Of a DNA stretch of 41,546 nucleotides, positions 11,476 to 13,414 are shown in pieces; position 1 is the first letter of the stretch; each line of letters begins with the position of its first letter. The stretch comes from a virus: IMG/VR virus record IMGVR_UViG_3300020156_000453, positions 1 to 41,546 of that record. One strand, 5' to 3'. A model generated the notes under the pieces. It worked only from the letters and a program-made list of their open reading frames with translations. It had not been told where the DNA came from and made no database searches. The translations under genes were made by a program, and so were the position numbers.

Positions 11476-11925
11476 ATGAACATCATCGACACCGCCCACA
11501 AGACCGTGCATGCCTATCCGGGCGGCAGCGAGTCGCTTGCCCCGCGCCTTGGCATGTCCGCCGCGGTGCTGCGCAACAAGGTCAATCCGAACAACACCAC
11601 GCATCACCTGACCCTGGCCGAGGCCAGCGAAATCATGGGCGTGACCGGTGACGACGGGATACTGCACGCGCTGGCGGCGGAACACGGCTACGTGCTGCAG
11701 CGGATCGACGCGGCGGGGCCGGGCGGGGTGTTCCCCTCGATGCTTGAGAACGCCTCCAAGCAGGGCGCGTTCGCGCAGGCGCTTCAGGACGCGCTGAGCG
11801 ACGGGCTCATCTCCGAGAACGAGATGCGCGCCATCGCTGCAGCGGGGACCGCGCAGATGGGTGCGCTGATCAACCTGTTGGCAAGGCTGCGCGAGGTGAC
11901 CGGCCGGCCTGGTGTCATGGCATGA
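11476..11925 (+). CDS. Phage regulatory protein, CII family (CP76-like)
   Basis: A 149-aa protein whose first 75 residues match the phage CII/CP76 family: a helical DNA-binding region with SLAPRLGMSAAVLRNKVNP, the HHLTLAEASEIMGVTGD segment and HALAAEHGYVL. The second half is a helical oligomerisation region. Family members control lysogeny or early transcription in temperate phages. It is the next rightward gene after the two opposed small genes and its stop overlaps the next start by 4 bp. Which promoter it activates cannot be read from the sequence. Confidence 0.82.
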   Translation: MNIIDTAHKTVHAYPGGSESLAPRLGMSAAVLRNKVNPNNTTHHLTLAEASEIMGVTGDDGILHALAAEHGYVLQRIDAAGPGGVFPSMLENASKQGAFAQALQDALSDGLISENEMRAIAAAGTAQMGALINLLARLREVTGRPGVMA

Positions 11926-12375: not shown

Positions 12376-12502
12376 CCCCTGTCCCTCTCACCCCTGGGTA
12401 GCTCCCACGGGGACACGCCGAGCTCCCGGCTTGAGGGACGGGGCCCATAGGAGCTGGAGAAGACCATGCAACACACCATCAACGAAGCGCGGGGAGGCCG
12501 TC
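12376..12502 (+). other. Structured leader and 15-codon leader frame before the replication gene
   Basis: CCCCTGTCCCTC (12376-12387) can pair with GAGGGACGGGG (12433-12443) around a G+C-rich loop. It is followed by a tiny frame, ATG 12466 to TGA 12513 (15 aa), with GGAG upstream, which overlaps the replication gene start at 12503 in another frame. Translation of the leader could open or couple the start of the replication gene. No promoter was recognised here. Confidence 0.35.
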
Positions 12503-13414
12503 ATGGCCGCTGAGCACTGGCTGCGCTGGCACCACGGAACGATCACCGACCCGAAATGGCGGGTGATCGCTGCGCGCGCTGGGAACGCGTTGTCACGCAA
12601 TGTCACGGTTGGTCACGTCGTGTCCGTTTGGGCTGCGATGCTGGAGTGCGCGTCACAGGCAAATCCGCGCGGAACGCTCGTCGGATGGTGCGATGAAGAC
12701 GTGGCCGCGGCCCTGGGCCTGCCCGAGGAAGAGGTGGCCGCGATCCGCGCCGCGATGGAAGGCAAGACGGTTGCCGGCGACGAGCTCAGCGCGTGGAAAC
12801 GTAGGCAGCCCAAGGCCGAGGACGGAACGGCAGCACAGCGGAAGCAGGCCCAGCGGGAGCGCGAGAGAGCTGCGGCTAAGCCCGTGACGGGCGGTGACTC
12901 TGGCGAAGGTCACGAGGTGTCACGGTCTGTCACGACAGAGACAGAGACAGAGACAGAGGAGAAAGATAAATCCTCGCTTCGCTCGGATTCGTCATCGGCT
13001 GCGCCGGATGACCGCCCGCCGGCTCCGGTTCGGATCGACCAGGCCAAGGCCGAACGGCTCGGCCAGGTCACCGCCGAGGCGATCGCCGCGTTCAACGCCA
13101 GCCTGCTGGTCAAGGCCAACGGCGGCTTGCTCGCATCCGTCAGCCCCACGGTGGGCAGGGAGCGCCGCCAGCAGCAGGTCAGGCGTTGCCTGCGGGTGGC
13201 GCGCCAGATTTCCCGGGAGACCTACGGCACCGACCGCGTGCCGGCGCAGTTCTGGGTCGATTACTTCCAGGCCGTGGCCGCAGACGACTTCCACGCCGGG
13301 CGGCTGGGCGGCGGCCGTGGCCACGAGAACTGGCTGCCCGACTTCGAGTTCCTGACGCAGGAAAAGACCATGCTCAAGGTCTACGACCGTGCCGCTGACG
13401 AGGCCGCGGCATGA
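12503..13414 (+). CDS. Phage replication initiation protein (lambda O-like in role)
   Basis: A 303-aa protein with an N-terminal helix-turn-helix-like region (KWRVIAARAGNALSRNV.. and DEDVAAALGLPEEEVAAI), a charged low-complexity linker (residues ~110-165 including TETETETE) and a C-terminal helical domain (QVRRCLRVARQISRETYG). This three-part design and its place directly before dnaB are those of origin-binding helicase loaders such as O proteins or DnaT/DnaD-like proteins. Start ATG 12503 follows GGGGAGG. Two clusters of GTCACG repeats lie inside the gene, as the lambda origin lies inside O. Its stop overlaps the dnaB start. Confidence 0.78.
   Translation: MAAEHWLRWHHGTITDPKWRVIAARAGNALSRNVTVGHVVSVWAAMLECASQANPRGTLVGWCDEDVAAALGLPEEEVAAIRAAMEGKTVAGDELSAWKRRQPKAEDGTAAQRKQAQRERERAAAKPVTGGDSGEGHEVSRSVTTETETETEEKDKSSLRSDSSSAAPDDRPPAPVRIDQAKAERLGQVTAEAIAAFNASLLVKANGGLLASVSPTVGRERRQQQVRRCLRVARQISRETYGTDRVPAQFWVDYFQAVAADDFHAGRLGGGRGHENWLPDFEFLTQEKTMLKVYDRAADEAAA
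12592..12617 (+). repeat. Iteron cluster 1: three GTCACG spaced 10 bp
   Basis: GTCACG begins at 12592, 12602 and 12612. The 10-bp period equals one helical turn and is not a multiple of three, so it is not produced by repeated amino acids. Probably binding sites for the initiator encoded by the same gene. Confidence 0.65.
12909..12934 (+). repeat. Iteron cluster 2: three GTCACG spaced 10 bp, beside a purine/A-rich tract
   Basis: GTCACG begins at 12909, 12919 and 12929. One inverted copy (CGTGAC) is at 12883-12888. Four tandem ACAGAG units (12935-12958) and an A-rich stretch with GATAAAT follow, which could be the melting region of an origin. Confidence 0.65.

Follow-up and report, generated by a model that had tools for sequence, protein, structure and literature searches.

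A probable replication origin of one-turn-spaced units inside a phage initiator gene

Why does a phage gene for a replication initiator carry the same hexamer three times at exact 10-bp steps, and do so at two separate places? The question is raised by IMGVR_UViG_3300020156_000453, a complete IMG/VR record of 41,546 bp that was analysed over its whole length and is called the window below. The genome is of siphophage type, and in the terminase-portal region its closest matches are Klebsiella and Stenotrophomonas phages, at about 70% DNA identity. The early region runs from a CII-like regulator through two small ORFs to an O-like initiator and then DnaB, the start codon of which overlaps the stop codon of the initiator. 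The following features are concerned.

11476-11925, plus strand: gene for a CII-like regulator, upstream of the initiator (Phage_CP76, E 3.7e-40; phrog_101)
12503-13414, plus strand: gene for an O-like replication initiator of 303 amino acids (phrog_3729, E 1.3e-18; phrog_345, phrog_5810 (C-terminal part))
12592-12617, plus strand: cluster 1, three GTCACG at 10-bp steps (12592, 12602 and 12612), coding for residues 30-39
12652-12657, plus strand: GTCACA, identical to the unit in five of six positions, four 10-bp steps past 12612; also in L429 and L571
12883-12898, minus strand: two inverted units, GTGAC at 12884 and 12894, ahead of cluster 2; kept in L429 and L571
12909-12934, plus strand: cluster 2, three GTCACG at 10-bp steps (12909, 12919 and 12929), coding for residues 136-144
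12935-12969, plus strand: A-rich purine array, ACAGAG four times and then GAGAAAGATAA, beginning directly past the last unit of cluster 2; candidate tract for unwinding and helicase loading
12969-12989, plus strand: inverted repeat AATCC-tcgcttcgctc-GGATT, a possible hairpin past the array; also in L568, and as ATCC...GGAT in L429
13411-14835, plus strand: gene for a DnaB-like replicative helicase (Pfam DnaB_C, E 2.6e-87; DnaB N, E 5e-35)

The initiator belongs to the phrog_3729 family, the profile of which it matches over residues 3-159 and which is matched by all 52 proteins of alignment A2 (P0001, L429 and 50 of the relatives described below). Its C-terminal part has a weak match to the O-like phrog_345, and no ATPase family was matched when PHROG and Pfam profiles were compared with the protein. 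Both GTCACG triplets, together with an inverted copy (CGTGAC) at 12883, had been reported in a first-pass annotation of this DNA and are all present. Another inverted unit, the GTGAC at 12894, lies exactly 10 bp away from this copy and was overlooked in the annotation. L429 and L571 have retained the pair despite differing flanking bases; in the family at large it is rare, being present in 3 of 52 genes.

GTCACG as such is not unusually frequent in the window, with 37 copies where dinucleotide shuffles predict 32.8, but the triplets are unusual: nowhere in the 41.5-kb window other than in clusters 1 and 2 is a hexamer present in three copies separated by a constant step of between 7 and 15 bp. 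Similar clusters elsewhere in the window would have spoken against an origin, and none were found. When the synonymous codons of the gene were shuffled with the protein fixed, six phased units were obtained in none of 20,000 trials. The cumulative GC skew of the whole window shows no turning point at the initiator gene.

Three scans of viral contigs, for GTCACG triplets with a step of 10, 9 or 11 bp, were compared by the destination of their hits among the matches listed. Among these matches, one BLAST-linked set of genes holds 102 of the roughly 129 loci that have 10-bp chains and 76 of the 119 that have 11-bp chains, as against 2 of 126 loci with 9-bp control chains. Within this set 178 of the 180 loci with 10- or 11-bp chains, again among the matches listed, are on the coding strand, and its 58 coding-strand subfamily representatives are mostly assigned to replication-initiator, DnaD-like or replisome-organizer PHROGs. 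The set was built by single linkage, by which similar linkers could have pulled in a few unrelated genes, and it is therefore a working group and not a proven family. Its profile aligns with that of the window family with an hhalign probability of 99.8% over 140 columns, a comparison that is partly circular because both sets share some close relatives.

A second sample was drawn without use of the hexamer. Viral contigs were searched with peptide patterns lacking the residues coded by the units; the patterns cover the C-terminal half of the N-domain and the following basic stretch of six seed proteins, which themselves carry GTCACG units; other words were not among the seeds. The best 80 loci among the matches listed gave 52 genes after removal of near-copies. 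Phased chains of at least two units are present in 50 of these 52 relatives, and 48 are individually significant (p<0.03) in synonymous-codon shuffles with the protein fixed. Over the whole sample 281 phased units were seen, compared with 25 +/- 7 in such shuffles. Of 255 distances between nearest neighbouring units, 193 measure 10 or 11 bp, and additional peaks are seen at 20-22, 30-33 and 40-42 bp. The units are spread almost evenly over the three codon phases (139/118/107). Judged from these comparisons of sequences, the spacing is helical phasing of the DNA, and the arrangement has been selected as DNA and not as protein. Whole-genome draws by phylum yielded 3 of 398 (pattern) and 9 of 299 (phrog_3729) matches, which are too few to use.

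The units of cluster 2 are followed by a further element. In the window, ACAGAG is repeated four times at 12935-12958 and is followed by AGAAAGATAAAT; the A- and purine-richest 30-mers of the window are almost confined to the array at 12935-12969. The repeats and the A-rich stretch are thus where the first-pass annotation had placed them, but a strongly A+T-rich region is not the right description of a tract that is purine- and A-rich, with a best 40-mer of 57.5% A+T (top 0.3% of the window). The array is found in 50 of 52 relatives at an offset of 2-4, 9 or 12-13 bp past the last unit. In 42 of the 51 genes its first AGA lies 2, 3 or 4 bp past the ACG of the unit; the other nine have it at 9, 12 or 13 bp, where the longer offset mostly amounts to one extra turn and sometimes holds a decayed unit. 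Positions 2-27 of the stretch that follows the last unit have 51% A and 29% G, compared with gene means of 25% and 31%. The form varies (ACAGAGACAGAG, AGATACAGATAC and AGAGAAGAGAAG), and all three codon phases are used among the relatives, which makes the array a feature of the DNA.

The word of the unit also varies. It is GTCACG in 26 of the 52 genes, CGAACGC in 15, GGAACGC in five and GTAACGC in four, with the same step and mostly at the same two places for all four words. Neighbouring words in the series GTCACG, GTAACGC, GGAACGC and CGAACGC are one or two bases apart. In a tree of the N-domain, built on 98 columns, the word types are clustered, yet at least 10 changes over five states are needed (shuffled mean 23), and the supported branches force at least four changes for the GTC type. 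A change of word with the layout kept should give related phages origins that are mutually blind.

The two clusters are not kept to the same degree: cluster 1 is present in 32 of 51 genes and cluster 2 more widely. Cluster 2 codes for part of a disordered linker. Cluster 1 codes for a loop between two helices of the N-domain, and its placement varies by clade, so that different loops of this domain are used. In the clade of the window it sits in an insertion of six residues between the first two helices, as seen in the alignment with relatives, and in E. coli-type and CGA-type genes it is further on, before the second helix-turn-helix. Because the loop differs between clades, this suggests that cluster 1 has been placed repeatedly and independently. 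Since it is common and found at differing sites of the N-domain, cluster 1 probably matters.

The initiator is predicted to consist of a winged-helix N-domain (about residues 8-105), a disordered linker (about 125-175) and a helical C-domain. With 40 homologous N-domains as input, AlphaFold2 models the winged-helix domain confidently (pLDDT 90.6). When full-length homologs are used, residues 134-173 of the linker, the stretch to which cluster 2 and the array correspond, score below 50. Foldseek searches with the whole model and with the N-domain rendered no match at E<=0.001, and a PDB sequence search with the initiator rendered none. The VIA-align rows reach Z 7.7 (the CRP DNA-binding domain), all at the level of winged-helix domains in general, and DnaD is not among the structures listed. 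The entries 4pt7 ('Structure of initiator') and 4pql ('N-Terminal domain of DNA binding protein'), presumably N-domains of plasmid RepA proteins, have Z 5.0-5.2 and an rmsd of 3.1 over 77 aligned residues and are tied with other winged-helix rows. The C-terminal parts of the relatives match varied families (DnaD-like, DnaT, O-like and Phg_2220_C). A significant match to the DnaB of the window is found just downstream in 14 of the 52 relatives, and other proteins are encoded there in the others.

Taken as a whole, the site is very probably a phage replication origin embedded in the initiator gene. This had been proposed in the first-pass annotation and is now strongly supported by comparative evidence, namely the spacing, the independence of codon phase, the concentration in initiator genes and the array in fixed register. 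The comparison of sequences also establishes that the layout, with one-turn units mostly in one orientation, two clusters and an in-register array, is common to most relatives of the initiator. It is a reasonable inference that the encoded initiator binds the units and brings in DnaB, because a winged-helix N-domain is confidently predicted and dnaB is next door. The winged-helix N-domain would bind one unit per subunit, which would place the subunits next to one another along a single face of the DNA and, as the spacing suggests, in a polar row. Where it ends at cluster 2, this row might then push into the purine array or capture one of its strands, leading to opening, an order of events suggested by the spacing. 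The adjacent-encoded DnaB would be loaded at the opened array with help from the C-domain of the initiator. Cluster 1 might form another row for binding, with a possible role in cooperative loading or in autoregulation.

Initiator dimers might instead wrap both clusters into one looped or wound structure similar to the O-some of lambda, in which case the site would still be an origin and only the mechanism would differ. The 32 of 51 genes with two clusters are in line with this, as is the inter-cluster distance kept at 306-318 bp in the clade of the window. However, the distance is kept only in that clade and is 199-320 bp over the relatives, and because these distances share no helical phase, the DNA looping suggested in the first-pass annotation is unsupported. 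The short asymmetric unit is also unlike the 18-bp iterons of lambda at 20-24 bp steps, and a wrapped structure is considered unlikely.

The comparison with lambda is appropriate as an analogy of layout. In lambda ori/O and its Stx-phage relatives the origin is likewise inside the initiator gene, with direct iterons followed by an A-rich tract (PMC7466680). The sequence of the window has this same arrangement of repeats in the coding sequence of the initiator and then an A-rich tract. In both, a helicase function is encoded next door and a CII-type gene upstream, so the gene order is that of lambda cII-O. The size and the step of the iterons differ: lambda has 18-bp iterons at steps of 20, 24 and 23 bp, about two turns, whereas the window has asymmetric 6-bp units at 10 or 11 bp. 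The iterons of lambda are bound by O dimers in one cluster of four (six in Stx phages) and not in two clusters, and the neighbouring gene encodes the loader P where the window has DnaB itself. No similarity is detectable between lambda O, as a single sequence, and the initiator (hhalign probability 0.2%).

If the phased units were operators by which the initiator or another phage protein, for example the CII-like regulator, controls the replication operon, replication would start elsewhere. Initiators often autoregulate, sites spaced by one turn also suit a polymerising repressor, and cluster 1 is near the 5' end of the gene. Cluster 2, however, lies some 400 bp into the gene, is conserved more widely than cluster 1 and abuts the array in fixed register in nearly all relatives. 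Control by operators explains neither the array nor the concentration of the units in replication initiator genes, and this explanation is regarded as improbable.

A role at the RNA level, as an mRNA element for translation or antisense control instead of a DNA site, would fit the hairpins found past the array in about half of the relatives. A perfect stem of at least 6 bp is present there in 27 of 50, a moderate excess over controls. Helical periodicity of 10/11 bp is a property of DNA, though, the direct units do not pair with each other, and no Rfam match was found, so that an RNA element is very improbable. Just past the array, L591, L596, L603, L629, L581, L579 and L604 have perfect hairpins of 6-8 bp in which the loop CTAACG or CTATCG recurs with differing stems.

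A protein repeat or low-complexity linker giving periodic DNA by chance can be dismissed even though disordered linkers tolerate odd peptides and the array codes for TETETE-like ones, because, as the first-pass annotation had argued from the 10-bp step, steps of 10 and 11 bp, both of which occur within single clusters, are not divisible by three, the units stand in every codon phase and are destroyed by synonymous shuffles, and 9-bp repeats of the same hexamer are not concentrated in the initiator gene among the matches listed.

Returning to the origin, a similar architecture is known from plasmids. The RepA of pSK41, a RepA_N initiator, has an N-domain of winged-helix type, a separate C-domain and a DnaD-like relationship, and its origin sites lie midway in the gene, where they code for a dispensable linker (PMC5703833). 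The window initiator is similar in the position of the sites in the linker and in its separate C-domain, and a winged-helix N-domain is predicted for it. Unlike the window system, pSK41 has four Rep boxes with A+T tracts and a tetrameric N-terminal domain. No match to Pfam RepA_N (PF06970) was found in the window protein or among the families matched by its relatives, and the structural match to RepA N-domains (4pt7 and 4pql) is no better than that to general winged-helix regulators.

The basal unwinding element of Bacillus subtilis, with DnaA boxes, DnaA-trios and DRE, has oriented double-strand sites followed by a repetitive strand-biased tract at a fixed distance, for opening and strand-specific loading (PMC10201434). 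The likeness is in the oriented binding sites with a repetitive tract at a fixed distance. The tract of B. subtilis is made up of a defined trinucleotide, whereas the arrays described here are of AGA/AN type (ACAGAG, AGATAC, AGAGAAG) with a period of 5-6 bp. DnaA is an AAA+ ATPase, whereas the window initiator has no matched ATPase family.

The Rac prophage of E. coli K-12 has an initiator-like DUF1376 gene, ydaU, in the linker of which repeats of TGTTCAA type are followed by AAAGATACAGATAAAGATC (L550, 3509-3640), an array of the same type as in the window. There is no GTCACG in ydaU and no hexamer triplet phased at 10/11 bp. It is offered as a suggestion only that these repeats and the array are a candidate for the oriJ sequence with a different repeat word.

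Named phages and bacterial genomes have the same layout. In Escherichia phage Tritos (L551) units are located at 1945, 1955, 1965 (as GTCACA) and 1976 and again at 2205, 2215, 2225, 2236 and 2246, followed by ACAGATAAAGATACAGATAAAG. It is also present in Aeromonas phage pAEv1818, in Pseudomonas phage Marin and in a circular 50.9-kb element of P. aeruginosa. Among 5426 complete E. coli genomes, 2208 contain a segment resembling the E. coli form, a count of similarity and not of units per genome.

It has long been known that an origin with iterons and an A-rich tract can lie inside an initiator gene (lambda; pSK41 RepA, PMC5703833; Stx phages, PMC7466680). No phage iterons at 10-bp spacing were found in an open literature of 5.39 million papers, where the three papers pairing 'GTCACG' with 'iteron' concern other subjects according to title and abstract. 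A review of phage replication modules by Weigel and Seitz reportedly treats origins inside initiator genes in general. A short asymmetric unit phased at one turn, the presence of such units in many initiator families, a word that changes stepwise and a purine array in register were not found described in the open literature, and subscription papers may contain an earlier description.

The chances seem evenly balanced that phages of hosts from several phyla share a single origin code. This code would be an asymmetric hexamer repeated every turn on one face, with an in-register A-rich purine array opened by a polar row of a winged-helix initiator that has no recognised ATPase; the word would drift in single-base steps together with the protein, and the VT/CH/SR and TETETE peptides would be its coding shadow. 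Such a simple DNA signature allows the replication origins of many temperate phages and prophages to be read from sequence, and the unusual peptides of phage initiators are accounted for as by-products of sites in the DNA. The differing words provide a natural series of matched pairs of initiator and site for studying shifts in specificity. The system can also serve to test how DNA is opened by an initiator that lacks a recognised ATPase domain.

The N-domain is inferred to be the part that reads the units, but L578 (2402-3343) counts against this: its N-domain is nested among CGA types and its linker has GTCAC units. One CGAACGC remains at the position of cluster 1 in L578, which is possibly a recombinant and could tell which part of the protein reads the word.

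Units are absent from three relatives of the initiator (L609, L627 and Microcystis phage Mwe-JY25). The linker in L609 (2399-3472) and L627 (2396-3505) is replaced by a domain that resembles GIY-YIG/T5orf172 by eye only, and no phased units are present there. In the window, an inverted repeat CCCCTGTCCCTC...GAGGGACGGGG is located at 12377-12443, 5' of the initiator gene. It was considered as a structured leader and rejected, as its RNA stability is no greater than that of shuffles (z -0.56).

The circular 50.9-kb P. aeruginosa record is filed as a plasmid. Its segment L649 (CP137943.1, 43509-46796) has a CII-like gene, a DnaB-like helicase and an initiator of the present type in which both phased clusters are found, and the record is probably a phage-plasmid or a circular phage. 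Several arrays of the 11-bp set (L311-L428) have the unit GTCACGTGACA, which contains the palindrome GTCACGTGAC, and some lineages may therefore use both orientations.
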